22,134 nucleotides of DNA. Origin: Candidatus Aerophobetes bacterium Ae_b3b (GTDB lineage Bacteria > Aerophobota > Aerophobia > Aerophobales > AE-B3A). The translations under genes and the position numbers were made by a program. Every line of letters starts with the position of its first letter. Positions within the stretch are counted from its first letter, which is position 1. The stretch is from contig NJBP01000039.1 in assembly GCA_005223085.1 (NCBI GenBank), positions 1 through 22,134 on the forward strand, read 5' to 3'. Of the stretch, positions 1,937 through 22,134 are shown one piece after another. The notes beneath the pieces were generated by a model. The model ran no database searches, was not told the DNA's origin, and saw nothing but the letters and a program-made list of their open reading frames with translations.

Positions 1937-1968
1937 AGTCAGGTGGAAGGATAGTTTTACTTTAGCCC

Positions 1969-3135: not shown

Positions 3136-3138
3136 GAG

Positions 3139-4437
3139 ATGGAAAATGAAAGTAGTTTAGCAGAAGAGGCAAGGGATCAGATTGAAGAGATGGGGAAAGC
3201 GGACATTCTGGTGGGGATACCCAGTTTTAATAATGAAAAATCTATTGAACATGTAGTGAGAGCAGTTCAGTATGGTTTGGCTAAATACTTTCCTAAATTT
3301 AGATCGGTGGTCATGAACTCCGATGGTGGTTCAACCGATAAAACCAGGGAAATCGTTAAGGAGACCAGTATTTACCCTGATTTACATACCATTCTCATTG
3401 AACATCCAGTTCGACCAGCGAGGAGTCTTTCCACTCCCTATCATGGTATTCCCGGAAAAGGAAGTGCTTTCAAGGCTATCTTCGAAACAGCAAAGTTGCT
3501 GAAGGTAAGAGCCTGTGTGGTGGTCGATTCTGATGTAAGAAGCATTAATCCTGAATGGATTGAGCTTTTGGCCGGTCCGATCGTGATAAAAGGTTATGAT
3601 TATGTTTCTCCGCTTTACCTTCGTCATAAATACGATGCTACCATTACCAATTCCATTGTCTACCCTTTAACCAGAGCCCTTACTGGTTTAAGGGTGCGTC
3701 AACCCATAGGGGGAGATTTTGGATTCTCGGGCAAACTAGTTAAATCCTTCTTGGACAAGGATGTTTGGGGAACGGATGTGGCCCGTTATGGTATAGATAT
3801 CTGGATGACTGCTACCGCTATAAACGAGGGCTACAAGGTGTGTCAATCTTTCTTGGGAGCCAAAATACATGATGCCAAGGATCCCGGGAAAGATCTCGCT
3901 CCCATGTTTAAACAAGTCGTGGGCACTCTTTTTCACCTCATGTGTGATTATGAAAATCACTGGAAGCAGATCACCCGTGCAAAGCCCCCCGCTGTTTACG
4001 GTTTCCGTTCGGAAGCTTCGCCTGAGCCGGTAGCGCTAAACCGTAAGCTTTTGGTAGATAAATTTAGAAAAGGATTAATGGAGAATCGTGATTATTGGCT
4101 TACTTTTCTTCCACGCGAAAGGATAAGACAGCTAGAAAAAGTAGCCAGGCTTCCCTTCGATGGATTTAGTCTTTCTCAGACGCTTTGGATAAAAACGGTC
4201 TATGACTTTGCCGTTGCCTATCGTCAAAGAAAAGCTGCTCCACTTGAGGTGAGGGATCAACTCCTCGAGTCTCTGGTGCCTATTTATTTTGGAAGGACAG
4301 CTTCCTTTGCTATTGAGACCAGAGATATGCCGACCTACGAGGCCGAAGAGGTAATTGAACGCTTATGTGATAAGTTTGAAAAATTAAAGCCTTACCTCCT
4401 CCAGCGATGGGACTCTATTGTAAATAATGAGGGATAG
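3139..4437 (+). CDS. GT81-family glycosyltransferase, probable glucosylglycerate-type synthase
   Basis: The 432-residue protein has the fold signature of GT81 enzymes, which make glucosyl-3-phosphoglycerate or glucosylglycerate from NDP-glucose. Seen in order: VGIPSFNNEKSI (25-36), nucleotide-binding SDGGSTDKT (61-69), PGKGSAF (105-111), the DSD metal motif (130-132), RQPIGGDFGFS (187-197) and YGIDIWMT (217-224). The C-terminal 170 residues are longer than in the short mycobacterial GpgS type and are rich in charged helices. It starts 3 bases after mgs with AAGGAGG at 3124-3130, so the two are translated from one message. No glucosyl-3-phosphoglycerate phosphatase is near, leaving open whether the acceptor is glycerate or 3-phosphoglycerate. 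Together with mgs it could make two solutes or contribute to a mixed mannosyl-glucosyl-glycerate. Confidence 0.8.
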   Translation: MENESSLAEEARDQIEEMGKADILVGIPSFNNEKSIEHVVRAVQYGLAKYFPKFRSVVMNSDGGSTDKTREIVKETSIYPDLHTILIEHPVRPARSLSTPYHGIPGKGSAFKAIFETAKLLKVRACVVVDSDVRSINPEWIELLAGPIVIKGYDYVSPLYLRHKYDATITNSIVYPLTRALTGLRVRQPIGGDFGFSGKLVKSFLDKDVWGTDVARYGIDIWMTATAINEGYKVCQSFLGAKIHDAKDPGKDLAPMFKQVVGTLFHLMCDYENHWKQITRAKPPAVYGFRSEASPEPVALNRKLLVDKFRKGLMENRDYWLTFLPRERIRQLEKVARLPFDGFSLSQTLWIKTVYDFAVAYRQRKAAPLEVRDQLLESLVPIYFGRTASFAIETRDMPTYEAEEVIERLCDKFEKLKPYLLQRWDSIVNNEG

Positions 4438-7802: not shown

Positions 7803-7871
7803 CTCGTTATATAAGGAAGGACCTGCGTAACCTGAGGTTGGTAGTGAAGCCAGGTCTTTTTCTTAGACGAG
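7803..7871 (+). promoter_or_regulatory. Leader hairpin with T-run, possible attenuator
   Basis: A 9-bp stem AAGGACCTG (7817-7825) with CAGGTCTTT (7851-7859) encloses a small AACC/GGTT hairpin (7829-7832 with 7836-7839) and leads into TTTTTCTT. An outer CTCGT/ACGAG pairing (7803-7807 with 7867-7871) brackets the whole. The stem-then-T pattern looks like an intrinsic terminator inside the leader, 190 bases before the first gene. No known riboswitch class was recognised. Confidence 0.42.
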
Positions 7872-7920
7872 AAGCTAAAAATAAGGCCAGGAGGGAGGTG
7901 ATAAAGTAAGTAGGCCTGAG

Positions 7921-8025
7921 CTGGGGGGAAAGAAAGCTTTCAAAAAGAAAGGCGTTAAATAATTAAGTCTCTTTTTAGAAGCTTTCCCAGAAAATTTAAC
8001 CAGGTCGATGAAGACACAGATCGAC
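7921..8025 (+). promoter_or_regulatory. Further leader stems upstream of the binding-protein gene
   Basis: CTGGG (7921-7925) can pair with CCCAG (7986-7990), and AAAGCTT (7933-7939) with AAGCTTT (7979-7985), giving a long-range stem with a bulge. A separate hairpin is formed by GTCGAT (8004-8009) and ATCGAC (8020-8025). These lie in the untranslated leader before the ATG at 8058. They are compatible with post-transcriptional control, but function is unproven. No protein-coding frame is evident in the 7619-8057 gap apart from the possible upstream extension of xseA. Confidence 0.35.
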
Positions 8026-8057: not shown

Positions 8058-9407
8058 ATGGTAGGTAAAAAATGCTCGAAGGGGTTAATGGGAGTTTTAG
8101 CTGGATCAGTGATTATGATGGGGATTGTTTCCGGTGCCTTTGCGGTGGAAGTGAGTGTTCCCAAGGGTTTCAAGTTCGGAACTTACACCCAGCAGCCGTG
8201 GGCCGGTAAGACTATTCATGTGGCTATGGTTGCAGAGCCTCGCTGTGATGCACTGAAAAAGCTGGCTCCCGAATTTGAGAAGCTGACCGGAATAAAGATT
8301 GTCTTTGATATTCTCGCCTACCCGACTCTACAGGAAAAGCAGATGGTGGCTCTTACTCAGGGTACCGGGGTCTATGATATAGTTCATGTTGATTGTGTGT
8401 GGGTTGGTCAGTATGCAGGTGAAGGATGGACAATCCCGCTGGAGGAATTTATTCTGCGCACAGATCATAATACCCTGGCTCTAGATGATTTTATCCCGGC
8501 GGTCGTATCAGAACAGGGAATGTGGGAAGATAGAATCTTTGGATTTCCATTTATTAATGCGGCATTTGGACTGCACTATCGAACCGACATTTTTGATAAA
8601 TATGGGATAGAAGTTCCTCAGACCTGGAAAGAGTTAAGGGAGACGGCTGAAAAACTTAATTTGAAGGAACCAGGAGTTTCCGGTATTACCTTTATGGGCA
8701 GAAGAGGGGTTCAACTCCAGTGCAGCTATGACAATATGCTCTGGTCCTTTGGCGGAGACTGGTATGATGAAAACTACCGCCCCACCATAAACAGCCCGGC
8801 TGCAGTGGATGCGCTAGAGTACTTCAAATCTCTTATTCCTTTCGCCCCTGCCGGAGTATTGACTTATGATTGGGATGAAACAGCTCGTTCCTTTGCCCAG
8901 GGGAAGGCAGCTATGGATCTTCAGTGGCATAATGCTGCCCCTACGGCCTCCGATCCTTCGAAATCGAAAATCGTGGGTAAGTTTGATTTTGCCGTGATTC
9001 CTGGAAAACTACAACCCGACGGGAGTATCAAAAGAACTCCTACCTTCGGGGGTTGGAGTCTGGAGATTCCTAAAGATTCCAAAAATAAGGAAGCTGCCTG
9101 GGAGTTTATGGTTTGGGCCACTTCACCAGAAATACAACCAAGACTGGCTTATGGTCAACCCGGGGATCGTTTCTCTTCCTTAGCAGACCCGAAATTACAG
9201 GAAAAATATGTTGGGTACCAAACACTGTTGGTTTCCCTCCCCATAGCTAAAGGTCGTCCCCGGATTGCTGCTTATTCGGAACTTGCAGATGCCTTAGAGG
9301 TAGGTCTATCTGAGGGTATGACTGGAGCTAAGAGCGCTAAAAAAGCGCTAGATGACGCGAACAACAAATTTGAGTTTATTCTCAAAAAGTGGGGGTATTT
9401 GAAGTAG
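8058..9407 (+). CDS. Extracellular solute-binding protein, family 1 (CUT1 sugar uptake)
   Basis: The 449-residue product begins with a typical Sec signal peptide: basic MVGKKCSKG, a hydrophobic core to about residue 25 and an AFA cleavage site near 29. There is no lipobox cysteine, so it should be a soluble periplasmic protein. The mature part reads as a MalE/UgpB-like binding protein, with PEFEKLTGIKIVFD (64-100 region), YDIVHVDCVWVGQYA, and FGGWSLEIPKDSKNKEAAWEF in separate conserved blocks. The start is fixed by an excellent AGGAGG 7 bases before the ATG. It heads a three-gene transport unit with two permeases. The ligand is unknown, but the neighbouring enzymes suggest a polyol, sugar acid or glycoside. 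Confidence 0.93.
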   Translation: MVGKKCSKGLMGVLAGSVIMMGIVSGAFAVEVSVPKGFKFGTYTQQPWAGKTIHVAMVAEPRCDALKKLAPEFEKLTGIKIVFDILAYPTLQEKQMVALTQGTGVYDIVHVDCVWVGQYAGEGWTIPLEEFILRTDHNTLALDDFIPAVVSEQGMWEDRIFGFPFINAAFGLHYRTDIFDKYGIEVPQTWKELRETAEKLNLKEPGVSGITFMGRRGVQLQCSYDNMLWSFGGDWYDENYRPTINSPAAVDALEYFKSLIPFAPAGVLTYDWDETARSFAQGKAAMDLQWHNAAPTASDPSKSKIVGKFDFAVIPGKLQPDGSIKRTPTFGGWSLEIPKDSKNKEAAWEFMVWATSPEIQPRLAYGQPGDRFSSLADPKLQEKYVGYQTLLVSLPIAKGRPRIAAYSELADALEVGLSEGMTGAKSAKKALDDANNKFEFILKKWGYLK

Positions 9408-9460: not shown

Positions 9461-10384
9461 GTGGAACTGGGCCAGAGAGTGTGGCTTTTTTTTTGTTTGT
9501 TAAAACGTAAGTATATGTGGCTTTTTTTTCTTGCTCCTACAGTTGCAGTCCTTATCAGTATAGTTATATTTCCTCTCGTTTTTTCTCTCAGTCTCAGTTT
9601 TCACGACTGGAATATTATCAGAGCTGGGGGATGGAGCTGGACCGGGATTGGCAACTACCGGACAATTCTTTTTCAGGACTCCTACTTTCGTTCTTCCTTT
9701 AAGGTTACCCTTCTCTATTTAGCTGGTACTGTTCCTTTACAGTTTGGTTTGGGTCTTGTAGTTGCGCTTATACTGCATCGGATTACCAAAAAAATTATTG
9801 GATTTTTGCGAACCGCCTTAATTATTCCTACTACTATGACTCCGGTCGTAGTTGGAATGATATGGAGACTGATGTACAACCCGGATTTAGGTATGCTCAA
9901 TTATTTTCTCACCTTGTTTCGTTTCCCCCCCGTTAACTGGACCGGCATGCCAGGGACAGCTCTTCCCTCAGTAATGATGGCTGATATCTGGGAGTGGACC
10001 CCTTTTATGGCCTTGATACTGCTGGCCGGACTTCAATCTTTACCCCAGGAACCCTTTGAGGCCGGTCTTGTTGACGGAGCATCACCCTGGCAGACATTTC
10101 GTTATATTACCTTACCTCTTTTAAGTCCGGTCATGCTGGTGGCACTTCTTATTAGACTGATGGATTCTTTTAAGACTTTCGATTTGATCTTTGTTCTTAC
10201 CCAGGGAGGGCCGGGTATGAGCACTGAAATATTGAATTACTATACCTATCGCTATGGTTTCAAATTCTTTCACCTAGGATATGCCTCAGCTTTGTCGTGG
10301 CTATTGCTGGTAGTTGTGACCATAATCTCCATAATTTTAATCAGAATACTCCACTCCAGGGGAATATATGCCGAGAGAGCATAA
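9461..10384 (+). CDS. Sugar ABC transporter permease, MalF/UgpA type
   Basis: This 307-residue inner-membrane protein is one of the two pore subunits of the CUT1 transporter. It has about six hydrophobic spans, the first at roughly residues 19-45, and the cytoplasmic EAA loop that docks with the ATPase, EAGLVDGASPWQTFRYITLPL (about 197-217, read in two parts). The segment TQGGPGMSTEILNYY is typical of UgpA/MalF-like permeases. The GTG at 9461 has AAGGG about 8 bases upstream; an ATG at residue 19 is the alternative start. It follows the binding-protein gene after a strong stem-loop and overlaps the next permease by one base. Confidence 0.95.
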   Translation: MELGQRVWLFFCLLKRKYMWLFFLAPTVAVLISIVIFPLVFSLSLSFHDWNIIRAGGWSWTGIGNYRTILFQDSYFRSSFKVTLLYLAGTVPLQFGLGLVVALILHRITKKIIGFLRTALIIPTTMTPVVVGMIWRLMYNPDLGMLNYFLTLFRFPPVNWTGMPGTALPSVMMADIWEWTPFMALILLAGLQSLPQEPFEAGLVDGASPWQTFRYITLPLLSPVMLVALLIRLMDSFKTFDLIFVLTQGGPGMSTEILNYYTYRYGFKFFHLGYASALSWLLLVVVTIISIILIRILHSRGIYAERA

Positions 10385-11214
10385 TGAATGAAGTTGTTAG
10401 AGCAAAAGTAAAAAAGATAATTTTTCTGCTAATAGCGGCAGTTATCTTTGGTGTAATTCTTTTTCCTCCTGTGGTTTTATTCTTAACCTCTATTAAAACC
10501 GAATTAGATGCTCTTAGTTTTCCTCCCAAGTGGATCTTTAAGCCCACGCTGGAAAATTATACGGAGATATTTGAATTCTCTCCTTTTGCCAGGTATCTAC
10601 TAAACAGCTTCATAGTTGCTTCCCTAAACACAGGAGTGGTTCTTGTTCTGGGTTCCTTCGCTGCCTACAGTTTAGCCCGATTTAGGTTTAAGGGAGCCGA
10701 TGATATTGCTTTCTGGATACTTTCCGTAAGAATGATGCCTCCCGTAGCTGCCATTATTCCTATTTATATTATCATGAGAAATCTACGCTTGCTGGATACT
10801 CCCTGGAGTTTAGTGATAACTTACCTCACCTTTAATCTACCTTTTGCAGTCTGGATGATGAGAAGTTTTTTTCGGGAGATTCCCCGGGAAATTGAAGAGA
10901 GTGCTCTGGTAGATGGATGCTCCATCTTTCGTTCTTTTCGGAGTATAGCCCTACCTCTGGCGGCTCCAGGATTAGCAGCAACAGGAATACTTACTTTTAT
11001 TTTTTCCTGGAATGAGTTTTTATTTGCCTTAATTCTCACCGGGAGCAAAGCGGTAACTTTACCGGTGGGTATCACTGGTTATATGAAGGAAACCGGTATT
11101 AATTGGGGTTATATGACTGCAGGTGGAGCACTTGCCCTGATTCCGGTAATAGTATTTACAATTTTGGCCCAGAAGCATTTAGTAAAGGGTCTAACTATGG
11201 GGGCTCTAAAATAG
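10384..11214 (+). CDS. Sugar ABC transporter permease, MalG/UgpE type
   Basis: The 276-residue product is the second pore subunit. It has an N-terminal span (about 12-33), LTSIKTELDAL, the NSFIVASLNT and GSFAAYSLARF segments, and an EAA loop, EESALVDGCSIFRSFRSIALPL (about 189-210). The stop and start overlap as TAATG, so translation is coupled to the first permease and the ATG at 10384 is secure despite a longer open frame upstream. No ATPase gene follows; the MalK-type ATPase at 836-1936 or one elsewhere must energise the pair. Confidence 0.95.
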   Translation: MNEVVRAKVKKIIFLLIAAVIFGVILFPPVVLFLTSIKTELDALSFPPKWIFKPTLENYTEIFEFSPFARYLLNSFIVASLNTGVVLVLGSFAAYSLARFRFKGADDIAFWILSVRMMPPVAAIIPIYIIMRNLRLLDTPWSLVITYLTFNLPFAVWMMRSFFREIPREIEESALVDGCSIFRSFRSIALPLAAPGLAATGILTFIFSWNEFLFALILTGSKAVTLPVGITGYMKETGINWGYMTAGGALALIPVIVFTILAQKHLVKGLTMGALK

Positions 11215-11257: not shown

Positions 11258-12019
11258 ATGAAACTAGGGCGTAAATCGGCAGTTATTACCGGTGGCGCTA
11301 TGGGGATAGGGAAGGCTATTGCTCAGCTATTTTCCAGTGAAGGTTGTCGGGTGGTTATAGCGGATGTCAATGAGGAGAAAGGAGCTGAAAGTCGAGAGGA
11401 GATCGAAGAGCGGGGAGGAAGTAGTCTATTTATTAGATGTGATGTTGCCAGAGCTGATGAGGTAAGAAATATGGTTCAAAAGGCGGTTTCCGTTTATGGC
11501 AGCATTAACATTCTGGTGAATAATGCGGGAATCTGGAGACCGGGAAGGGTCACCGATCTTACGGAGGAAACCTGGGATCAGGTGTTAAATACAAATTTGA
11601 AGGGGAACTTTCTTGTCTCAAAGGAGATTATTCCCCATATGCAGAAAGACGGAGGGGGTTCAATAATAAATGTAGCCTCGGTGGCTGGATTAGTGGGTTC
11701 CAGAGAAGCATCTGCTTACAATGCCTCCAAGGGGGGTATTGTCAATTTAACCCGAGCTATGGCCTTAGATTTTGCCAAAGATAATATCAGAGTTAATTGT
11801 ATCTGCCCTGGATTAATAGAGTCTGCGCAGGGAGATATGGTAGTTGCTCATTATGCGCCTGGTAAAGATCCTAAAACTGCTATGACATCCTGGCAACCTA
11901 TAGCTCGAATTGGGATTCCGCAGGATGTTGCAAAAGCTGCTCTTTACCTTGCTTCTGATGAGTCCTCTTTCGCTACAGGATCGATTTTTGTAATAGATGG
12001 GGGATTAACGGCTGAATAA
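11258..12019 (+). CDS. Short-chain dehydrogenase/reductase (SDR)
   Basis: The 253-residue protein is a classical SDR oxidoreductase. It shows the dinucleotide motif TGGAMGIG (11-18), Asp36 at the end of the second strand (which favours NAD over NADP), NNAG (88-91), and the catalytic set Asn113, Ser141, Tyr154 and Lys158. The ending GSIFVIDGGLTAE is the usual FabG-like C-terminus. GGGAGGAAA precedes the ATG. It starts 43 bases after the second permease and is the first enzyme of the catabolic run. The substrate is probably a sugar, polyol or keto-acid intermediate; SDR sequences do not reveal which. Confidence 0.93.
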   Translation: MKLGRKSAVITGGAMGIGKAIAQLFSSEGCRVVIADVNEEKGAESREEIEERGGSSLFIRCDVARADEVRNMVQKAVSVYGSINILVNNAGIWRPGRVTDLTEETWDQVLNTNLKGNFLVSKEIIPHMQKDGGGSIINVASVAGLVGSREASAYNASKGGIVNLTRAMALDFAKDNIRVNCICPGLIESAQGDMVVAHYAPGKDPKTAMTSWQPIARIGIPQDVAKAALYLASDESSFATGSIFVIDGGLTAE

Positions 12020-12075
12020 GGATACTTTTATCTTCCGCTACTGCTAAAATTTTTGGCAAAGGTATGGGGTGAAAA

Positions 12076-12795
12076 TTGCAGCTAAATATTCGTGATTTTG
12101 CCAAGATGATAGAATTCAGTCTGGTAAGACCTGATGCAACAGAGAAGGATATAGAGCGGTTTTGTCACATTGTCAAGGAAAATAATTTTGCAACTGCCTG
12201 CGTTAATCCGGTAAATGTATCCCTTACAGCAGAGCTTCTTAAGGGAACAAATATAGATATATCAGCCTCTATTGGCTTCCCCTTTGGTTCCCACATTCCG
12301 GAGGTAAAGGCCCTTGAGGCTAAACGGGCCATCGAGATGGGAGCAACTCAGATAGACATGGTAATAAACATAGGTGCCTTAAAATCGGGAAAAAATGAAA
12401 TGGTGTTTAAGGACATAAAGGCAGTAGTGGATGTATCAGGTAATGCTCCGGTGAAAGTGATTCTGGAAAATGGGTTCTTAAATGATGAGGAAAAAGTAAG
12501 AGGATGCAGAATGGCTAGAGATGCAGGGGCGAGTTTTGTAAAAACATCAACAGGAGTTGAAAGTAAATATCTTCTCCAGAGAGGCTCTGAGTCTGTGGGA
12601 GCAAAAGTTAAAGATATTAAACTTATGAAGAAGGTAGCAGGAGAGAAAATGAGGGTTAAAGCATCAGGAAGGATATACACCCTTGATTTTGCCCTGGAGC
12701 TTATAAAGGCAGGGGCAGACAGAGTGGGAACCAGCAAGGGGCCTCAATTGATTCGGGAATTTAAAGAGAGATTTCGAGACTCTATTCAGAGATAG
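12076..12795 (+). CDS. deoC: DeoC-family class I aldolase, divergent
   Basis: The 239-residue protein belongs to the deoxyribose-phosphate aldolase family. The Schiff-base lysine is Lys156 in FVKTSTG, the helper Lys195 lies in RVKASG and the proton-relay Asp94 in QIDMVINIGALKSG. Several positions differ from the common form: the phosphate-loop GGIRT is GRIYT (198-202), the early IDHT is IEFS (12-15) and the segment after KTSTG is VESKYLLQRG instead of the usual glycine-rich FGTGG-like turn. These lie near the substrate, so the aldehyde or phosphate acceptor may not be deoxyribose 5-phosphate. TTG is the start, behind GGGGTGA. It sits between an SDR and an FGGY kinase, a plausible kinase-aldolase pair. 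Confidence 0.85.
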   Translation: MQLNIRDFAKMIEFSLVRPDATEKDIERFCHIVKENNFATACVNPVNVSLTAELLKGTNIDISASIGFPFGSHIPEVKALEAKRAIEMGATQIDMVINIGALKSGKNEMVFKDIKAVVDVSGNAPVKVILENGFLNDEEKVRGCRMARDAGASFVKTSTGVESKYLLQRGSESVGAKVKDIKLMKKVAGEKMRVKASGRIYTLDFALELIKAGADRVGTSKGPQLIREFKERFRDSIQR

Positions 12796-12821
12796 ATGGG
12801 AGTTTTTGAGGGAAGAACAAG

Positions 12822-14381
12822 TTGAAAGATAAGTTTTTTATCATAGGGGCCGATGTTGGTACTACTTCTGCCAAGGTTATAGTTTTTGAGGAAGAAGGAA
12901 ATCCAGTGGCTGAGGGGAGAGCCTCCTATCCTCTTCTTCGGCCTCAAACTGGCTGGGTTGAGCAGAAAGCAGAGTGGTGGTGGCAAGCCTTCCAGACAGC
13001 TACAAAAGAAGCTTTAAAGCAAGGGAAGATCAATAAAAACAAAATTGTGGCTATAGGCATCACTCACCAGAGAATCACCACTGTACCAGTGGATGAGACG
13101 ATGGAACCTGTTCGCAATGCCATTCTCTGGAATGATATGAGATGCACGAAACAAAATGAGTGGGCGAGAGAAAAAATAGGAGTAAAGAGGATCTACTCCC
13201 GTACGGGAAACTTCCCCAGTATCTGGACAGTTTACAAAGCCATGTGGCTCAAGAAGAATGAACCGGAGACCTACAGAAAAACTTATAAGTTCCTTCTTGT
13301 TCAGGATTACATAATCTATAAACTAACAGGAAGATTAGTTACTACCTCAAGTTCTGCCATCCAGACTGGCTGCTTGGATGTGACCTCTCCTACCAAGTGG
13401 GCTGAGGATATTCTTGATCTTTTTGACATTCCGGCTAGTCTCTGGGTAGACGGGATCCTTCCCGGAGGGGAGCTGGTGGGAAAGATCACCAAAAGGTCAT
13501 CAAGCCTTACAGGTCTTCCGCAGGGACTGCCCGTAGTGACCACCGCGGGGGATCAGCCCTGTGGAACATTAGGAGCTGGAGTTAACCAACAGGGGATGCT
13601 GGCTATAAATGGAGGAACCTCCTGTTCCTTGGAGGTTTATGTGAAGGAACTTAAACTGGATCCCTATTTAAACTACTTTATAGAGATCAGCCCCACTGGG
13701 GACTACCTTCTGGAGGATTCCATATGGAGTGGAGGCTCGGCTCTCATGAGCTGGTTTAAAGATAATTTTGCCAGAGAAGAGGTCAAAGAGGCTCAAAAAG
13801 AAGGAGAACATCTCTGGGATAAACTCTACAATCTGGCTACCCAAGCTCCTCCCGGTAACAAAGGACTCATGTTAATTCCCTATTATTCTGGTGCATCCTC
13901 TCCCTACAGGGATCTCATGGCAAGAGGGGTTATCTTCGGATTTCTTCTGGATCACGGCAAATCTCATCTCGTAAGAGCCATTCTGGAAGGACTTGCCTTC
14001 GAATCACGCCGTAAAAAAGAATTCATGGAAAAAGGTTCCGGGATTCCCATTACTAGGGTGAGAATGTACGGGGGATCAGCCAAAAGTCCTGTCTGGAATC
14101 AGATATTTGCCGATGTGTTAGGCGTTGAGGTCTGTACTTTGAAGACTCCGGAGACTACTGCTCTGGGAGCCGCAATATGCGCAGCCATCGGAGGCAAGGT
14201 ATATTCTAGTTTTCAGGAAGCAGTGAAGAAAATGGTTCATGTAGACCGAACTTTTTTACCGGATTTTGGGAAAAGAGAGATCTACGATAACCTTTATTCT
14301 CAGGTCTATAGCAAGTTCTATGATCGGGTGCAGGATCTCGTCCATACTGCCTCCGAAATAATCGAACAGCATAAAAAATAG
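12822..14381 (+). CDS. FGGY-family carbohydrate kinase, xylulokinase-like
   Basis: This 519-residue kinase transfers phosphate from ATP to a sugar or polyol. The N-terminal phosphate motif is GADVGTTSAKVIVFE (9-23), HQRITTV lies near 82-88, the catalytic base is Asp244 in AGDQPCGTLGAG (242-253), and INGGTSCSLE (262-271) and MYGGSAKSPVWNQIFADVLG form the second-domain ATP site. Length is normal for the family. TTG at 12822 is preceded by GAGGGAAG. FGGY specificity cannot be assigned by eye; candidates include ketoses, polyols and linear keto-sugar acids made upstream in the pathway. It lies 26 bases after deoC and is followed by the regulator gene. Confidence 0.93.
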   Translation: MKDKFFIIGADVGTTSAKVIVFEEEGNPVAEGRASYPLLRPQTGWVEQKAEWWWQAFQTATKEALKQGKINKNKIVAIGITHQRITTVPVDETMEPVRNAILWNDMRCTKQNEWAREKIGVKRIYSRTGNFPSIWTVYKAMWLKKNEPETYRKTYKFLLVQDYIIYKLTGRLVTTSSSAIQTGCLDVTSPTKWAEDILDLFDIPASLWVDGILPGGELVGKITKRSSSLTGLPQGLPVVTTAGDQPCGTLGAGVNQQGMLAINGGTSCSLEVYVKELKLDPYLNYFIEISPTGDYLLEDSIWSGGSALMSWFKDNFAREEVKEAQKEGEHLWDKLYNLATQAPPGNKGLMLIPYYSGASSPYRDLMARGVIFGFLLDHGKSHLVRAILEGLAFESRRKKEFMEKGSGIPITRVRMYGGSAKSPVWNQIFADVLGVEVCTLKTPETTALGAAICAAIGGKVYSSFQEAVKKMVHVDRTFLPDFGKREIYDNLYSQVYSKFYDRVQDLVHTASEIIEQHKK

Positions 14382-14439
14382 ACAAATTTGGAGGATTAAA
14401 TTAAAATATGTGATGAGACCTGTAGGAATCTGGTAGAAA

Positions 14440-15252
14440 GTGAGAAGCGACTTGTCTAAAAAAGAACCTACTTATCCTCTGAAGGCCTTGGATAAATCTT
14501 TAGCAATTCTTGAGATTTTGTCCCGGGAGAACTCTCCTTTGAGTATAGCTCAGCTTAGTGAGAGATTAGGCATCTATCCCAGTACCATCCACCGTATTCT
14601 GGACACTTTAAGATATTGGGGGTATGTAGAGCAGGACCCTGTCACCCAGAGGTACCAACTGGGTTTAAAGGTACTAGAATTGAGTACGGCTAAACTTCAG
14701 GGAATGGAGCTAGTAAAAGAGGCGGCTTCTTACCTTAAACAGCTACGGGAGCAGTCAAATGAGACTGTTCATTTGGCCGTCTTAGACGAGGGAGAGGTTC
14801 TTTATCTTGATAAGGAGGAATCGCCTCAGAGCATAAGGATGGTTTCTCAGGTGGGTAGACGTCTTCCTGCTCATTGCACCGGTCTAGGTAAGGTTCTCTT
14901 AGCTAACCTTGACGAAGAAGAACAAGAAAAGATTATAGAAGAAAAAGGACTTCCCCGTTTCACTGAAAGTACTATAACTGATAAAAAAAAGTTAAGAGAA
15001 GAACTGAGCAAAGCTAGACACCAGGGTTTTGCCGAGGATAGGGAAGAACACGAGCAAGATGTCCATTGTTTAGCTGCTCCTATAAAAGACCATAGCGGCA
15101 AAGTGATAGCGGCTATCAGTGTCTCCCTTCCTTCTTTCCGTATGAATGCTAGCAAAAGGAGGAAGTTAAAGGAGACTCTAATCCAAATGGGTGAGAATAT
15201 TTCCAAAAGATTGGGGTATAATAGGACTCGAGGAACTACTTCTATGTATTAG
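14440..15252 (+). CDS. IclR-family transcriptional regulator
   Basis: The 270-residue protein has an N-terminal winged helix-turn-helix (about 15-75: ALDKSLAILEIL, LSIAQLSERLG, STIHRILDTL, GYVEQ) and a C-terminal IclR effector domain (about 90-255), with RMVSQVGRRLPAHCTGLGK and GFAEDREEHEQDVHCLAAPI as family blocks. Such regulators bind palindromes near promoters and respond to small aromatic or sugar-acid ligands. It is probably the repressor or activator of this cluster and may recognise the palindrome at 7780-7794. The start is uncertain: GTG 14440 and TTG 14452 both lack a strong ribosome site, while GGAGG at about 14390 is followed by an ATG that runs straight into TGA (14408-14413). Confidence 0.93.
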   Translation: MRSDLSKKEPTYPLKALDKSLAILEILSRENSPLSIAQLSERLGIYPSTIHRILDTLRYWGYVEQDPVTQRYQLGLKVLELSTAKLQGMELVKEAASYLKQLREQSNETVHLAVLDEGEVLYLDKEESPQSIRMVSQVGRRLPAHCTGLGKVLLANLDEEEQEKIIEEKGLPRFTESTITDKKKLREELSKARHQGFAEDREEHEQDVHCLAAPIKDHSGKVIAAISVSLPSFRMNASKRRKLKETLIQMGENISKRLGYNRTRGTTSMY

Positions 15253-15262
15253 GGGGAAAACA

Positions 15263-16036
15263 TTGAATGAGAACAAGTTAAAAAGGCTTATCAAAGAGGG
15301 AGGAGTGGTGGTGGGGCCATTTATGAAGATAACAGATCCAGCAGTCATGGAAATCGCAGGTTATGCAGGGTTTAACTTCGTAATTATTGATACAGAGCAT
15401 GGGCCTGTCTCCATAGAGACAGCTCAAAATCTAGTGAGAGCAGCTACTTATGCAGAAATCAGCCCTATCATTAGGGTCAAAAATAATGACCCAGCTACCA
15501 TTCTAAGGGCATTAGATATTGGGGCAGAGGGTATCGAGGTTCCGCACATTAGTAGTAAAGAAGATGCTGTAAAGGCAGTACGGGCGACGAAGTTTGCTCC
15601 TGTTGGTGAACGAGGAGTCTGTCGTTTTGTAAGAGCTGCTCAATATTCTGCCTTAGATCGTTTTAAATATTTTGAAACCGCCAATAAGGAAACCATGGTT
15701 ATACTCCATATTGAAGGAGTGGAGGGGATAAATAACTTAGAAAGGATATTGTCAGTAAAGGGGGTAGATATTATCTTCATCGGGCCATACGATCTTTCTC
15801 AGTCGCTGGAATTACCAGGTCAAGTCAATCATCCGCTAGTAACTGAAAAAATGAACCATGTGATTTCATCTACCAGGAAAAAAGGAGTAGCTGTGGGGAC
15901 TTTTGTAGATGATGTAGAGACTGCTAGAAAGTGGATTAATCTGGGAGTCCAATATATAGGATTTTCCGTAGATGTAGGGATTTTCTATGAAGCCTGCAAA
16001 GACATAGTAGTGAAAATATTTCCAGAAAAAAAATAA
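15263..16036 (+). CDS. HpcH/HpaI family class II aldolase
   Basis: The 257-residue protein is a metal-dependent aldolase of the group that cleaves 2-keto-3-deoxy (or 4-hydroxy-2-keto) acids to pyruvate and an aldehyde. The expected residues are present at family positions: His46 in DTEHGP, Arg71 in IIRVKNNDP, metal ligands Glu151 in LHIEG and Asp177 in GPYDLSQSL. The TTG at 15263 was chosen because GGGGG lies 7 bases before it and it gives the normal length; the frame stays open upstream into the regulator gene. It follows the regulator by 10 bases. With DeoC, the cluster has two unrelated aldolases, which suggests two cleavage steps or two branches. Substrate unknown. Confidence 0.9.
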   Translation: MNENKLKRLIKEGGVVVGPFMKITDPAVMEIAGYAGFNFVIIDTEHGPVSIETAQNLVRAATYAEISPIIRVKNNDPATILRALDIGAEGIEVPHISSKEDAVKAVRATKFAPVGERGVCRFVRAAQYSALDRFKYFETANKETMVILHIEGVEGINNLERILSVKGVDIIFIGPYDLSQSLELPGQVNHPLVTEKMNHVISSTRKKGVAVGTFVDDVETARKWINLGVQYIGFSVDVGIFYEACKDIVVKIFPEKK

Positions 16037-16049
16037 GGTAAATGATAGA

Positions 16050-17102
16050 ATGAAGAGTAAAGGGATAATGATTGAAAAACCCGGCCAGCTTAAGATTATG
16101 GAAAGTGAAGTAGTAGAACCTCAGAAGGCCCAGGTTCTTTTAAAAGTGAATAACGTTGGTATTTGTGGTTCTGATATTCATCTTTATTATGGAAGTTATA
16201 CCGGACCTCATAGCTATCCTTTGTATTTCGGCCATGAATGGTCTGGAACAGTTATAAAAAAAGGTAAGAAAGTAAAAAGCCTGAACATAGGTGATACGGT
16301 AACAGGAGATTGTTCTATCTACTGCGGGAAATGCCAATATTGCCAGCAAGACAAGAACCTCTGTGAGAATATCCACAAGTTTGGCATAACTATAGGGGGT
16401 GCTTCGAGAGAGTATTTCCTGCAAGATGAGAAGTATCTTTATGAGCTGCCTGAAAATTTGCACCCAGGTTTAGCTTCCCTTGCAGAACCAGTGGCTGTTG
16501 CTGCTCATGCTCTAGAGAAGTTAGGCGAGATATCAGGCAAAAGAATCCTGGTGTTGGGTGCTGGAACTATTGGTCTTTCTGTTTTGATGGTCTTAAAAAA
16601 AATTCATAAGACTAAAAAAGTGGAGCTTTTCGATCTTATAGACTTTAGGCTAAAATTGGCAGAAGGTTCAGGAGCAAGGGTTCCTGACAATTTGGATCTT
16701 TTTAAAGGGGAAGTTAAGATCGGCGAAAAATATAAAGATTTCTATTCTGAGTTTGCCTACGATATTGTCATTGAAAGTAGCGGTTCTCCAAAGGCCTTTG
16801 ACAACGCCTTGAATCTGGTTAAACCTTTAGGGACTATCCTAAATATAGGCTTTATCCCGCCCTCAGAGATAAACTTTAGACTGGTTACTTTAAAAGCGAT
16901 TAGATTGATAGGGAGTATCGGGGGGACAGGAAATTTCCCCCAGGTTCTTCAATTGTTAAAAGATAATCAAGACTATGCCAGCTCACTTATTACTCATAGA
17001 TTTCCCTTCCAGGATGCCCAAGAGGCCTTTAAATTAAGTAAGGAGGCTGCTCAGGCTGTTAAAATTCAGTTGTTTTTCGAAGAAGAGTCAGAACCAAATT
17101 AA
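16050..17102 (+). CDS. Zinc-dependent alcohol/polyol dehydrogenase (MDR), sorbitol-dehydrogenase-like
   Basis: The 350-residue oxidoreductase has the medium-chain dehydrogenase layout. Catalytic zinc ligands are Cys39 in GICGSD and His62-Glu63 in GHEW, with Glu146 in LAEPVAV, as in sorbitol and threonine dehydrogenases. The structural zinc uses Cys92, Cys95, Cys98 and Cys105. The NAD site is VLGAGTIG (168-175). AAGGT precedes the ATG. It begins 13 bases after the aldolase. It probably oxidises a secondary alcohol of a polyol or sugar acid, or reduces the reverse. It is not closely alike to the second zinc dehydrogenase downstream, so the two probably act on different steps. Confidence 0.93.
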   Translation: MKSKGIMIEKPGQLKIMESEVVEPQKAQVLLKVNNVGICGSDIHLYYGSYTGPHSYPLYFGHEWSGTVIKKGKKVKSLNIGDTVTGDCSIYCGKCQYCQQDKNLCENIHKFGITIGGASREYFLQDEKYLYELPENLHPGLASLAEPVAVAAHALEKLGEISGKRILVLGAGTIGLSVLMVLKKIHKTKKVELFDLIDFRLKLAEGSGARVPDNLDLFKGEVKIGEKYKDFYSEFAYDIVIESSGSPKAFDNALNLVKPLGTILNIGFIPPSEINFRLVTLKAIRLIGSIGGTGNFPQVLQLLKDNQDYASSLITHRFPFQDAQEAFKLSKEAAQAVKIQLFFEEESEPN

Positions 17103-17175
17103 GTCTAGATTTATCTAAAAGACACCCGAAAGATGGAATGCACAAAAATAAATAAGTAGCTAAATTCTCAAAGCC

Positions 17176-18258
17176 GTGAATGAGGAGAAAGTGGATATTG
17201 CAAAAAAAATGAAGGCAGCGGTGTTATTCGGGTACAATGACTTGAGAGTGGTGGAAAAAGAAGTACCAACCCCAGAGCCTGGTGAGGTTTTGATCAAAGT
17301 GAAAGCCTGTGCTATTTGTGGTACCGACCCGCACATAATTTCTCAAGGTTGGCCGTCCAACCCACCCTTTGGGGAGTACATTCCGGGGCACGAATTTACC
17401 GGTGAGATTGTGAGGGTTGGAGAAACAGTGGACGAGTTTAAAGTGGGAGATAGAGTAGCGGTTGAACCACACAAAGGGTGTGGCCGATGTGTGAACTGTA
17501 TTAGAGGATTATATACCATCTGTCTAAATTACGGCAATATAGCAAAAGGACATCGGCATTATGGTTTCAGCACTAATGGAGGATACGCTGAATATGCAGT
17601 CAACCACATCAACACTCTTCATAGGATACCGGAAAAGCTCTCTTATGAGAATGCAACTCTAATTACTACTGCCGGAACTGTTATGTACGGGATAGAAAGA
17701 ATTGGGGGGATTAGGCCGGGGGAGACAGTGGTTGTCACCGGTCCAGGGCCGATTGGACTTATGGGAGTGCAGATTGTTAAAGCACTGGGGGCAGGTAGAG
17801 TCATTCTCACCGGAACTCGAGAGTCAAGACTGAAAGTAGGTAGAGAGGTTGGTGCTGATGAGACTATCAACATTCGTCAGGATGACCCAGTGAAAAAGAT
17901 AAACGAGCTTACCCACGAGCTTGGAGCAGATGTAGTGGTTGAGTGTTCAGGGAATCCTCGGGCCTCAGCCCAGGCTATAGATCTCATTAAAAAAGGGGGG
18001 AGGATTGCCCTGGTGGGCATCTATCAGGAGCCGGTGAGTCTTAATTTAAATAAAGTTGTTCAATGGAATTTATCCTTAGCTGGCGGAAAAGCTGAAGGGA
18101 TGTGGAATCTGGAAAGAGCAGTTCCCTTAATGGCAGATGGCAGAATCAAGGCAGGGCCTCTTATAACTCATATTTTTCCTCTGGACAAGATAAACGAAGC
18201 AATGGAGACCTTTGTTAAAAGAATAGGAGGGGCGATAAAGGTGGTCATTAAACCTTAA
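17176..18258 (+). CDS. Zinc-binding dehydrogenase (MDR), possible IolM-like inosose dehydrogenase
   Basis: The 360-residue protein has Cys48 in ICGTD, His72-Glu73 in GHEF, structural cysteines 102, 105, 108 and 116, and the nucleotide motif TGPGPIGLMG (188-197). The AEP glutamate found in the preceding dehydrogenase is absent here (LITTAGT). The start is uncertain: GTG 17176 has no ribosome site, GTG 17191 lies only 3 bases after GAGGAG, and ATG 17209 (giving MKAAVLFG) matches many homologues. It stands 11 bases before an IolN-like hydrolase. In Thermotoga maritima a zinc dehydrogenase (IolM) oxidises 2-keto-myo-inositol before IolN opens the ring, and this gene is the best candidate for that role. 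The assignment rests on context. Confidence 0.85.
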   Translation: MNEEKVDIAKKMKAAVLFGYNDLRVVEKEVPTPEPGEVLIKVKACAICGTDPHIISQGWPSNPPFGEYIPGHEFTGEIVRVGETVDEFKVGDRVAVEPHKGCGRCVNCIRGLYTICLNYGNIAKGHRHYGFSTNGGYAEYAVNHINTLHRIPEKLSYENATLITTAGTVMYGIERIGGIRPGETVVVTGPGPIGLMGVQIVKALGAGRVILTGTRESRLKVGREVGADETINIRQDDPVKKINELTHELGADVVVECSGNPRASAQAIDLIKKGGRIALVGIYQEPVSLNLNKVVQWNLSLAGGKAEGMWNLERAVPLMADGRIKAGPLITHIFPLDKINEAMETFVKRIGGAIKVVIKP

Positions 18259-18269
18259 GGAGGAGTAAA

Positions 18270-19388
18270 GTGTCTGGTCAAAACGAAAAAAGCAAGCTAT
18301 GGTTGACAACAGAAAATCCCGCTATCTTCTTCGAAAATACCGAAGTAGGCAGACTGAAGAAGAAGATCTGGGATGCATCGGAAGCCGAGATTGATGCGAT
18401 TCTGGCTGAATATGAGGTACCCTCACTTCCAGAGTTAGGTAAGCCTGGCAGTTACATTCAGACTACAGTTCGTCAGAAACTTATCGAAAACCGGAGCAAG
18501 AACGATATCGTTATTATACCTGTGGGATGTACGGAAAACCATGGTCGGCACACCATCTCTGGTCTGGATACCTTCATGGTGACCCAGATTGCTGAGGCAC
18601 TGCGTAGATATACGGCTAAAAAGGATCGGGCAGTTAATCTTGCCCTGCCCCCTCTCAATTATGGGGCTCATCCTTATCATCACCTGGGAATGCCCGGTAC
18701 GGTGATTATGCCGGATGAGGTGGTGCGGGAAACTCTCATCTATGTAATGCTTGGGCTATGGAACGATGGCTTTCGCAAACAGATTATAATTAATAACCAC
18801 GGGCAGCTCTGGGTATTGGAGACAGCTTTACATGAGTTTACTAAAAGATACCAGCTTCCGGGAATCTTCCAGGTGCTGGACTGGCATCGAGGAGTGAGGG
18901 AATTCTTTGGTTTAACTGGAAAAGCAGACAGCCATGAGACGCAGTTTGTCCATGCGGATGAGTCGGAGACCTCGGTGGCCCTTTTAATGTTTCCGGAAGG
19001 CACGGTTGAAATGAGCCTTGCTCAGGACACTGAAGGAGAAGGATTTCTTCCGGATGGTCATTTTGATAAGTCGGTGGATCCATTTCGTCGACCTCACCGC
19101 TGGTCTGAAGGTGAAGGCCACATGGCCATCGAAATAGCCGCAACGCCGGAAGGGACGGTGGGAAAACCAAGCTTAGCCAGTGCCAGAAAGGCGAAGCGGC
19201 CTATTGCGGCTATCCTCAGGTACTTGACCTTGGTTATTGATCAGATCCTGGAGGTCTTTCCACCTGGTAAAGTTCCGCCAGTGGGTAAGGTGACCTTGCG
19301 GGATGCTTCGGAGATGGAGCCTTATCTGAAAGAGCCTCAGAGTAAGGGTTGGAAATCAGTCTACAGATTGCCAAGGATTGGGTTCTAG
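18270..19388 (+). CDS. iolN: Creatininase-family metal hydrolase, IolN-like (3-dehydro-scyllo-inosose hydrolase)
   Basis: The 372-residue protein contains a creatininase core after an N-terminal extension of about 65 residues. Metal-ligand positions of the family are seen: Glu89 and His91 in GCTENHGRH, Asp100 in SGLDTF, His177 in INNHGQ and Glu231 in HADESETS. It is much longer than creatinine amidohydrolase (about 250), and lies between zinc and Gfo/Idh dehydrogenases, the arrangement of the Thermotoga inositol genes. There IolN hydrolyses the doubly oxidised inositol ring to 5-keto-L-gluconate. A strong AAGGAGGAG fixes the GTG start. Another lactam or lactone hydrolase activity cannot be excluded; the assignment is by length, motif and neighbours. 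Confidence 0.72.
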   Translation: MSGQNEKSKLWLTTENPAIFFENTEVGRLKKKIWDASEAEIDAILAEYEVPSLPELGKPGSYIQTTVRQKLIENRSKNDIVIIPVGCTENHGRHTISGLDTFMVTQIAEALRRYTAKKDRAVNLALPPLNYGAHPYHHLGMPGTVIMPDEVVRETLIYVMLGLWNDGFRKQIIINNHGQLWVLETALHEFTKRYQLPGIFQVLDWHRGVREFFGLTGKADSHETQFVHADESETSVALLMFPEGTVEMSLAQDTEGEGFLPDGHFDKSVDPFRRPHRWSEGEGHMAIEIAATPEGTVGKPSLASARKAKRPIAAILRYLTLVIDQILEVFPPGKVPPVGKVTLRDASEMEPYLKEPQSKGWKSVYRLPRIGF

Positions 19389-19472
19389 CTCGCAAAACAG
19401 TTGCAAAACCCCATTTTAAGATCAAGAGAGGATGGATGAGGTTATAATACAAGAGCTTTTTGGAGGAAACGG

Positions 19473-20474
19473 ATGCCTAAAGCGGTGAACATTGGAATTG
19501 CCGGGGCGGGCCGTATTGGGCAACGTCACGCAAAAAATTTGCTCACCCAAATCCCGAACGCTCATTTAGTTGCAGTGGCCGATGTTGAGAAAAAGAGAGC
19601 TCAGGAATTGGCAGAAAAGTGTGGTAAAATTAAATGGTACGATGACTATGAGAAGATGCTGGAGCAAAAAGATATAGAAGCTGTGATTATCAGTGCGAGC
19701 ACCAACGTTCACAAGGAAATAATCATTAGTGCCGCAAGCAAGGGCAAGCATATCTTCTGCGAAAAACCAATTGCCCTTACCTTGGAAGAGACAAATGAAG
19801 CTCTGGTGGTAGTGCAAGAGGTCGGAGTCTTGATGCAAGTTGGTTTTATGCGCCGATTTGATCCTGCCCTCTTTTCTGCTAAAGAAGAAGTCGATAAAGG
19901 ATCTATCGGGAAACCTCTTGTCTTCAAAGCAGTAAGCAGGGATCCCGAGGGTCCTCCCCTTGACTACGCGCAAGTAAGTGGGGGTCTTTTTGTGGATAGT
20001 GCCATTCACGATATTGATCTTGCCCGGTGGTTTATGGGCAGTGAAGTCGAAAAAGTCTATGCTGAAGGAAGAGTTCTTATCTATCCAGAATATAAAGAGT
20101 TTGGGGATGTTGATGTTGCCTTCACCACGTTAACCTTCAAAAATGGTGGCCTCGGCAGCATTGAAAATTCTCGTAGGTCCGGGTATGGATACGATACGCG
20201 GGTGGAGATAGTGGGCTCTGAAGGAACTTTACAGGTTGGCTATCTTCGCAGCCGGCGATTTTTTCGGCTGAACAAATCGGGAGTGAGCCATGACGTCGTT
20301 CCTTCGTGGATGGAGCGATTTAGCGGAGCTTTTGTCCATGAGTTGCAACACTTTGTGGACTGCGTCATGGACAATAAGACTCCCCTGGTTACCGGTATTG
20401 ACGGGAAGAAAGCTTTAGAAATTGCACTGGCAGCGACAAAATCTTGTCAGAAAGGTATCTCAATAACTTTGTAG
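19473..20474 (+). CDS. Gfo/Idh/MocA dehydrogenase, IolG-like (first of tandem pair)
   Basis: The 333-residue NAD(P)-dependent oxidoreductase has the N-terminal Rossmann motif GAGRIG (11-16), EKP with catalytic Lys98, and GGLFVDSAIHDIDLARW (170-186) containing the Asp175 and His179 pair used by inositol 2-dehydrogenases. The C-terminal half is the usual substrate sheet. GGAGGAAAC precedes the ATG. It is the best candidate for the first oxidation of a cyclic polyol, making the keto-inositol that the zinc dehydrogenase and IolN would process. The substrate could instead be another inositol isomer or a sugar; the family is broad. Confidence 0.9.
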   Translation: MPKAVNIGIAGAGRIGQRHAKNLLTQIPNAHLVAVADVEKKRAQELAEKCGKIKWYDDYEKMLEQKDIEAVIISASTNVHKEIIISAASKGKHIFCEKPIALTLEETNEALVVVQEVGVLMQVGFMRRFDPALFSAKEEVDKGSIGKPLVFKAVSRDPEGPPLDYAQVSGGLFVDSAIHDIDLARWFMGSEVEKVYAEGRVLIYPEYKEFGDVDVAFTTLTFKNGGLGSIENSRRSGYGYDTRVEIVGSEGTLQVGYLRSRRFFRLNKSGVSHDVVPSWMERFSGAFVHELQHFVDCVMDNKTPLVTGIDGKKALEIALAATKSCQKGISITL

Positions 20475-20526
20475 TCTTGGATAGAGAGATCGAAGCTATT
20501 GAAAAGGTAGGTACCGGAAGAACAGG

Positions 20527-21543
20527 ATGGATGATAAAGTAAAAATAGGTTTGATTGGTTTGGGAAGAATGGGGCGTATATATGTGGAGGCTCTCACTTT
20601 CCGAATCCCTCGGGCAGAACTGGTGGCGGTAGCTGATATCAACGGCGAAGCTGCTAAAAAAATCGCTGCCTCCTACAGGATAAAGCACTGGTTTGACAAT
20701 TACCCGGATCTCCTCAAAATCGAAGGTATCAGGGGGGTAGTCATCGCTGCTTCTACCAGCGTCCATACCGAGATTATTGTCGGCGCTGCTGAGGCCGGGA
20801 AAGATATATTTTGTGAAAAGCCTGTTGCCCTTACCTTGAAGGAAACTGACATTGCTCTTAGGGCGGTAAAAAAGAGAAAGGTAAAATTTCAAGCAGGCTT
20901 TATGAGAAGATTTGACAGAGGATATATGGTGGCCAAGAAAAAAATTGAAGAAGGCAAGATAGGAAAGCCTGTAAGTTTTAGATCTATAAGTAGAGATCCC
21001 ATGTGTCCCCGACTTGATTATGCCAGGGTAAGCGGGGGATTGATAATGGATATGGCCATTCATGATTTTGACCTCGCCCGATGGCTGATGGAAAGTGAGG
21101 TAAAAAGAGTTTGCGCTGAAGGGGGAAGGCTGGTATTTGATCAGCTAAGAGAGGCAGATGATATTGATAATGCTACTATAAATATGCTTTTTTCGAATGG
21201 TTCCCTGGGAAACGTTGAGGTAAGTCGTAATGCCTTGTATGGCTATGACATTCGTACCGAAGTTCTAGGTTCGGAAGGTGGTATAATGATTGGTTATGCT
21301 AGGCATACTCCAGTAGTCCTTTTAACAAAAAAAGGTGCGGCTCATGATTTTGTTCCCTATATTATGGAAAGATTTGGGGAGGCTTATACCAATGAGTTAA
21401 AATATTTTGTTGACTGCATTTATAAGGACCAAGACCCTTTAGTTGCCGGTCAAGACGGAAGAGCTGCTCTTGAGATTGCTCTGGCAGCAACTCAATCTTA
21501 TAAAGAGGCAAAACCAGTAGAAATACCCTTGGCAAGTCAGTAA
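20527..21543 (+). CDS. Gfo/Idh/MocA dehydrogenase, IolG-like (second of tandem pair)
   Basis: The 338-residue protein aligns with its upstream neighbour without gaps over at least the first 186 residues: GLGRMG (11-16), EKP with Lys98, FMRRFD (125-130), SRDP, LDYA-VSGGL and MAIHDFDLARW with Asp175 and His179. The pair therefore arose by tandem duplication or joint transfer, and both keep the catalytic residues. Differences cluster after residue 190 in the substrate domain, so the two may handle different stereoisomers, as B. subtilis does with myo- and scyllo-inositol. The ATG at 20527 follows GGAAG. It lies 52 bases after the first copy and 61 before the hydroxyacid dehydrogenase. Confidence 0.9.
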   Translation: MDDKVKIGLIGLGRMGRIYVEALTFRIPRAELVAVADINGEAAKKIAASYRIKHWFDNYPDLLKIEGIRGVVIAASTSVHTEIIVGAAEAGKDIFCEKPVALTLKETDIALRAVKKRKVKFQAGFMRRFDRGYMVAKKKIEEGKIGKPVSFRSISRDPMCPRLDYARVSGGLIMDMAIHDFDLARWLMESEVKRVCAEGGRLVFDQLREADDIDNATINMLFSNGSLGNVEVSRNALYGYDIRTEVLGSEGGIMIGYARHTPVVLLTKKGAAHDFVPYIMERFGEAYTNELKYFVDCIYKDQDPLVAGQDGRAALEIALAATQSYKEAKPVEIPLASQ

Positions 21544-21572
21544 TTTAGCAGTTTGATAAAGGATAAGGAATA

Positions 21573-21608
21573 ATGTCAGCGGTTTGCAGGAGAAAAAGGA
21601 ATCGATGA
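21573..21608 (+). other. Short upstream frame coupled to the next gene
   Basis: An ATG at 21573, preceded closely by AAGGA, opens an 11-codon frame (MSAVCRRKRNR) whose TGA overlaps the next gene's ATG as ATGA. It could be a leader for translational coupling, or chance. The arginine-rich content gives no functional clue. Confidence 0.25.
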
Positions 21609-22132
21609 CGAATAATAGAATGAAAGTAGTAGTAACCGATTATGACTATCCTTCGCTTGATCTGGAAAGAAAAGTACTGGAAGAAATTGATCCTGAGTTT
21701 GTTGGGGCTCACTGTACCACAGAGGAGGAGGTCATAACTGCGGCTAAGGACGCCGATGGTATACTCAATCAATATGCTCCCATAACCGAGAGAGTAATCA
21801 AATTTCTTGATAGATGCAAAGTTATCTCTCGTTATGGTGTAGGAGTGGATAATATTAATGTGGAGGCAGCTACTGAGCGAGGGATCATTGTGGCTAATGT
21901 TCCGGATTACTGTGTTGATGAGGTATCCACTCATGCAATGGCCTTGATCCTGGCCTGTGCTCGAAAGATACCTTACCTTTCTACCACCGTAAAAAACGGA
22001 AATTGGGATTTTACGGTGGGAAAGCCCTTATTCCGATCCCAGGGGAGAGTCCTGGGACTGTTTGGTCTGGGAAGAATTGCTAAAGCTGTGGTCCGAAAAG
22101 CAAAAGGTTTTGGCTTCCAAATTATAGCCTAT
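21605..22132 (+). CDS. D-isomer-specific 2-hydroxyacid dehydrogenase (SerA-like), 3' partial
   Basis: The frame is open from the ATG at 21605 to the window end: 176 codons and two further bases. It shows the N-terminal catalytic-domain pattern of SerA/CtBP-type enzymes: ISRYGVGVDNINVEAATERGI (74-94, in parts), VANVPDYCVDEVSTHAMALIL (96-116, in parts) and the start of the NAD fold, VLGLFGLGRIAK (149-160). The catalytic Arg, Glu and His of the second half lie past the window. AAAAGGA precedes the ATG; an internal ATG at 21620 is the alternative. It probably interconverts a 2-keto acid and a D-2-hydroxy acid made by the cluster. The name phosphoglycerate dehydrogenase should not be taken as proof of serine synthesis. 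Confidence 0.88.
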   Translation, partial: MTNNRMKVVVTDYDYPSLDLERKVLEEIDPEFVGAHCTTEEEVITAAKDADGILNQYAPITERVIKFLDRCKVISRYGVGVDNINVEAATERGIIVANVPDYCVDEVSTHAMALILACARKIPYLSTTVKNGNWDFTVGKPLFRSQGRVLGLFGLGRIAKAVVRKAKGFGFQIIAY

Positions 22133-22134
22133 GA

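Follow-up and report, generated by a model that had tools for sequence, protein, structure and literature searches.

A single run of genes in a 22,134-nt stretch of DNA places a hydrolase of the Thermotoga inositol ring-opening type together with a sugar kinase and two aldolases, which raises the question of whether these genes encode one catabolic pathway and, if so, which of them act on the ring-opened product. This stretch, referred to as the window, is the complete contig C24 of an Aerophobetes-type draft genome (G000; 2.04 Mb, 88.6% complete). Gene identities were assigned by ORF calls and by Pfam and NCBIfam profile scans against curated cut-offs, and both agreed with the gene order listed for 11258-22134 in a first-pass annotation of this DNA. 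Fourteen genes, all on the + strand, extend from nucleotide 8058 to the contig end with intergenic gaps of 2-84 bp, and since this spacing holds from the solute-binding protein gene at 8058 onward, the start of the putative operon is located upstream of 11258. The gene set is a real, well-formed operon, and its genes are presumably co-transcribed.

The putative operon opens with a three-gene ABC importer that lacks an ATPase and consists of an SBP_bac_1 solute-binding protein (8058..9407; PF01547, 178 bits; 87% identity to the protein encoded on contig C135 of genome G002) and two permeases matching PF00528 (9461..10384 and 10387..11214). The ORF call for the second permease begins at 10297, and the start at 10387 was deduced from homology to G002 and from the gap. 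Upstream, a MalK-type ABC ATPase gene, which could power this importer, is followed by genes for mannosylglycerate synthase and a second glycosyltransferase (836-4437). The contig begins inside an IS605-type OrfB (TnpB-like) gene (2-757). At the other end, a D-2-hydroxyacid dehydrogenase gene (21584..22134; PF00389, 72.7 bits; PF02826, 44.8 bits) is cut by the contig end after the N-terminal 183 aa, and a search of the other contigs for its continuation found none. A 136-bp piece of this gene (21891-22026) is repeated with 95.6% identity on contig C52 (L109 1875-2010) as an isolated scrap, the rest of the gene being absent there. The possibility of an assembly chimera was considered and rejected, as the DNA from the solute-binding protein gene to the start of the IclR gene is collinear with G002:C135 and GC3 has no abrupt shift at the junction. 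The half from IclR to the hydroxyacid dehydrogenase, however, has no collinear relative.

The gene at 18270..19388 codes for a 372-aa IolN of the long type, which scored 313.6 bits against the IolN model NF041098 (cut-off 245) as compared with 44.1 bits for creatininase and 49.0 bits for MftE. These scores ruled out a creatininase or lactam hydrolase identity and bear out the first-pass description of the protein as IolN-like. Its closest relatives come from Candidatus Aerophobetes MAGs; it is 87% identical to the IolN of an IolM-ZDHb-IolN operon of G002, ZDHb being a second zinc dehydrogenase, and is sister to this canonical IolN in the tree (support 99/94). The long type adjoins IolM in most of 78 loci, the sister sequence L006 included. 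IolN proteins are either of a long type of about 370 aa, with 306-314 bits, or of a short type of about 322 aa, with 523-535 bits, and the types swap in the same operon slot (L133 3878-4846; L131 6256-7269). The two genes that follow, IolG1 (19473..20474) and IolG2 (20527..21543), are of the inositol 2-dehydrogenase type, with 399.5 and 380.0 bits against TIGR04380 (cut-off 355), and the closest solved relative of both is 3ezy (E 9e-83 and 2.5e-75, respectively), which we take to be T. maritima TM0414.

The two zinc dehydrogenases that precede IolN, ZDH1 (16050..17102; PF08240/PF00107) and ZDH2 (17176..18258), are not IolM: they scored only 168.6 and 244.7 bits with the IolM model, the cut-off of which is 450, and in the tree they form well-supported clades across lineages, apart from both IolM and ZDHb. 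What stands of the first-pass interpretation is the union of a Thermotoga-type hydrolase and an IolG pair with kinase and aldolase genes, located away from IolM and IolO. The observation that the locus has no IolO, on the other hand, fails at the level of the genome, as contig C37 (G000:C37:65377-68363) includes IolM (499 bits), ZDHb, and an IolO that is truncated where the contig ends (333 bits). The genome thus encodes IolG, IolM, IolN and IolO, with IolM and IolO outside the operon that holds IolN. Upstream of IolM on C37 are genes for a member of the phosphofructokinase family and for a PfkB kinase (L111 8758-11094); the T. maritima inositol cluster also holds a PfkB-type, PPi-dependent inositol kinase, TM0415 (PMC5931981).

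The gap between ZDHb and IolO on C37 is only 9 bp, and it lies exactly where three relatives keep an IolN: the gene orders are IolM-ZDHb-IolN-IolO in G010, IolM-ZDHb-IolN in G002, and IolM-ZDHb followed by a short IolN in G004. For this reason the simplest history is that IolN probably moved from the C37 operon into that of the window. A DNA match starting at 18220 was evaluated as a possible 3' end of ZDHb carried along with IolN, and it was explained instead by the conserved C-terminus AIKVVIxP. A genome search found no second IolN over the cut-off in G000, although one may be unseen as the draft is only 88.6% complete. Because IolM and IolO are encoded on C37 without an IolN, the window IolN probably serves the standard route as well as the variant described below. 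The same facts could be accommodated by an ordinary Thermotoga pathway that is merely split, in which the IolG1, IolG2 and IolN of the window complete the IolM-ZDHb-IolO of C37 and the remaining window genes belong to unrelated sugar pathways, adjacent by chance. The sister relationship of the window IolN to the canonical G002 protein, the scores of both IolG proteins over their cut-off, and the separability of the SDR, DeoC and FGGY genes described below all agree with such an arrangement. We nevertheless consider it somewhat unlikely, as chance adjacency does not account for the recurrence seen in two other phyla, where ZDH2, joined by ZDH1 in one lineage, adjoins IolN in gene sets that lack IolM and IolO.

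This recurrence was established by a ZDH2 protein search at E<=1e-105, which identified 3 of 386 genomes in a broad sample, G000 included, and 3 of 26 in a Tepidanaerobacter-centred sample. As the latter was selected on account of the operon, which a ZDH1 search had earlier revealed in the Tepidanaerobacteraceae, only the broad sample is unbiased. In each of the six genomes an IolN gene lies at most 5 kb away from ZDH2. Apart from the window, the orthologues, with 62-68% identity, belong to G249 and G055, both of one phylum, and to three Tepidanaerobacteraceae genomes. The Tepidanaerobacteraceae operon includes IolN, a KduD-like SDR, KDPG aldolase, DgoK, a 2-hydroxyacid dehydrogenase, ZDH1 (45-47% identity) and ZDH2, with a ribose-type importer adjoining. 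In G055 one strand carries a short-type IolN, ZDH2, a TIM-barrel protein and another zinc dehydrogenase, and the other strand carries KDPG aldolase, a PfkB kinase, a 2-hydroxyacid dehydrogenase and a KduD-like SDR. The best model for this PfkB kinase is KDG/KDGal kinase, with a score under the cut-off. IolM and IolO are absent from the gene sets of both lineages, and HpcH, IolG1 and IolG2 were not found in the other ZDH2 loci, a point against the pathway proposed below.

A further such point is that the 2-hydroxyacid dehydrogenases of the ZDH2 loci belong to at least two subfamilies, those of the window and G055 both carrying the motif NVPxYCxDEVSxHAxALILA. The IolN proteins of these loci do not form one clade (AU test, p 1e-32), so that ZDH2 was not accompanied throughout by one lineage of IolN. 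IolN may have been recruited more than once, or else ZDH2 came to lie next to IolN genes that were already in place, and under either history the same hydrolase family would work with both dehydrogenase sets. On Thermus plasmids (L146 10236-14440; L148 10236-14440) the gene for a ZDH2 homologue (51%) and one of the creatininase family are divergently oriented, and a TIM-barrel protein is encoded with them. The creatininase-family protein scores below the IolN cut-off, and these loci suggest that the pairing of dehydrogenase and hydrolase may be wider. Searches of plasmid records with IolN, FGGY and ZDH1 gave no match at the thresholds applied.

The first-pass annotation had tentatively joined the kinase and both aldolases into one pathway for the ring-opened product, an idea that loses its ground when the upper part of the operon is compared with other genomes. 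This part includes an SDR dehydrogenase (11258..12019; PF13561, 232 bits; NF005559, 258 bits, subfamily cut-off 215; 86% in G002), a DeoC of the deoxyribose-phosphate aldolase type (12076..12795; TIGR00126, 228.6 bits, cut-off 117.3), an FGGY carbohydrate kinase (12822..14381; PF00370/PF02782) and an IclR-family regulator (14440..15252; PF01614, PF09339). The kinase reached no NCBIfam equivalog cut-off (best TIGR01312, 341 vs 380), and the regulator, which scored under the BhcR and KdgR cut-offs, passed no specific equivalog. The stretch from the importer to IclR is collinear in G002:C135, with 73-87% protein identity, on a contig other than that of IolN. In this genome (L098 5256-7745) DeoC has been cleanly lost from its place between SDR and FGGY, and of IclR only two fragments are left, beside a DJ-1/PfpI-family gene. 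On contig C26 of G012, FGGY and DeoC (76% identity) are accompanied by an aldehyde dehydrogenase, an SDR and another kinase of the FGGY family, and no IolN match was found in G012 at the threshold used. Therefore SDR-DeoC-FGGY can be considered a separable module, present in G012 without a detected IolN and on a contig apart from IolN in G002. The aldehyde dehydrogenase beside DeoC fits the release of acetaldehyde from a 2-deoxyaldose phosphate, and judging from this neighborhood the genes, together with the importer, are a module placed beside the inositol genes that probably acts in a deoxysugar-phosphate route. That FGGY and DeoC instead phosphorylate and cleave the ring-opened product, in a Bacillus-like logic with different enzymes, would agree with their common strand and gaps of up to 84 bp, but their occurrence in G012 and G002 makes this very unlikely.

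The proposal that the lower half defines a new way of processing the ring-opened product fared better, being strengthened by the ZDH2-IolN loci of two other phyla, even though cleavage by HpcH is likelier than phosphorylation by FGGY and cleavage by DeoC. We interpret the lower half as a variant of Thermotoga-type cyclitol ring-opening with ZDH2 in place of IolM, which would end in a 2-keto-3-deoxyhexonate split by HpcH, and we hold the chances of this interpretation to be about even. Family assignments are its starting point, and both the individual reactions and the substrate are predictions. By analogy with the T. maritima route, IolG1 or IolG2 would convert the cyclitol to an inosose, and ZDH2, the proposed IolM substitute, possibly with ZDH1, would carry out the second oxidation to a 1,3-diketone, which is the task of IolM in the standard route. 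IolN would then open the ring to a 5-keto-hexonate, the standard product being 5-keto-L-gluconate. The 2-hydroxyacid dehydrogenase, together with ZDH1 or an SDR, may effect redox shifts at C2 and C5 toward 2-keto-3-deoxyhexonate. The HpcH/HpaI pyruvate-type aldolase (about 15266..16036; PF03328, 126 bits) would finally cleave this compound, unphosphorylated, to pyruvate and glyceraldehyde, a role predicted from its family: its closest solved proteins are HpaI, GarL, YfaU and related enzymes, and it passed no specific equivalog model in the NCBIfam scan. HpcH relatives on haloarchaeal plasmids are set among other sugar-acid genes. In the relatives of the window operon a KDG/KDGal-type kinase and KDPG aldolase would take the place of HpcH, and it is the finding of two unrelated kinase families, DgoK and PfkB, both with KDPG aldolase, that points to 2-keto-3-deoxyhexonate as the end product. 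In another reading, the hydroxyacid dehydrogenase would reduce hydroxypyruvate after HpcH cleavage.

With an ordinary inositol as the substrate, this scheme has a gap at the dehydratase step, since none is encoded in the window locus or in the other ZDH2-IolN loci; the enzyme may lie elsewhere in the genome, as in the standard route. For the same reason a deoxyinositol of the quercitol or viburnitol type is an option as the substrate. In this special case of the preferred interpretation, two oxidations and IolN would render a 3-deoxy-5-keto-hexonate, the 2-hydroxyacid dehydrogenase would convert it to 2,5-diketo-3-deoxyhexonate, a known type of KduD substrate, and a KduD-like SDR would generate KDG or KDGal, to be consumed by kinase and KDPG aldolase or by HpcH. 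The gene sets of the Tepidanaerobacteraceae and G055, in which no dehydratase is visible, would be explained in this way. Dehydratases could, however, sit elsewhere in those genomes, the window has no KduD-like gene (the nearest in G000, with 49% and 44%, are on C22 and C31), and a literature search found no genes for quercitol catabolism. A deoxyinositol pathway common to the three phyla, which reaches 2-keto-3-deoxyhexonate without a dehydratase and continues with aldol cleavage, whether or not a phosphorylation is included, is in our estimate quite improbable, and the special case as written out here a shade more so.

Several known systems share parts of the proposed variant of cyclitol ring-opening. 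The T. maritima IolGMNO inositol pathway (Rodionova 2013, as cited in PMC5931981 and PMC12632266) is matched, as far as it is described in those citing papers, by the IolN and IolG proteins of the window, which exceed the curated cut-offs, and by the IolM and IolO encoded in the genome. Unlike in that description, the window IolN sits with ZDH1 and ZDH2 and not with IolM, the operon adds aldolases, an FGGY kinase and a 2-hydroxyacid dehydrogenase, and the IolN is of the long 372-aa type, with about 310 bits as compared with about 530 for the short type. In Paracoccus 43P the L-gluconate pathway, which starts from L-glucose, leads from 5-keto-L-gluconate via D-idonate and KDGal to KDPGal (PMC12632266); the outlet through 2-keto-3-deoxygalactonate with a kinase and an aldolase and the IclR regulator are similar, whereas its dehydratase, LgnE, is without counterpart in the window or the other ZDH2-IolN loci. 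Luteolibacter LG18 uses the epimerase LguG on 5-keto-L-gluconate to reach D-tagaturonate and then KDG (PMC12632266), an epimerase step comparable to that of the IolO on C37, but its route has no IolN step and depends on the dehydratase LguB. The Bacillus IolBCDEJ pathway also begins with IolG. Profile scans of the window confirmed, as noted in the first-pass annotation, that IolB, IolC, IolD, IolE and IolJ are all missing from it.

A noncoding leader element of about 140 nt is found on the + strand upstream of the first gene of the operon (7860..7995). Conserved copies are present on C37 (two; L111 153-300 and 11155-11292), C36 and C22 (L149 10898-11038; L150 9598-9737), in G002 (two; L098 1117-1177 and 7818-7957) and, as one weak copy, in G013 (L102 12974-13105). 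They are located 44-85 bp upstream of operon-first genes, which mostly code for solute-binding proteins of different types and also for an SDR, so that the element precedes transport or catabolic operons in Aerophobetes genomes. Comparison with Rfam identified no family at the gathering threshold.

What is new in this analysis is the set of ZDH2 and IolN, joined in other phyla to a back end for 2-keto-3-deoxy sugar acids. An immediate consequence is a hazard for annotation, as ZDH2 and ZDHb are readily mislabelled as IolM or threonine dehydrogenase. Should the deoxycyclitol reading be true, it would provide a route for the plant quercitols. More generally, the results suggest that IolN also takes part in a second pathway, which has a dehydrogenase of its own in ZDH2 and back ends that differ among the three phyla. 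Such a pathway would widen the known uses of the IolN family, and the loci provide concrete candidate enzymes for it.
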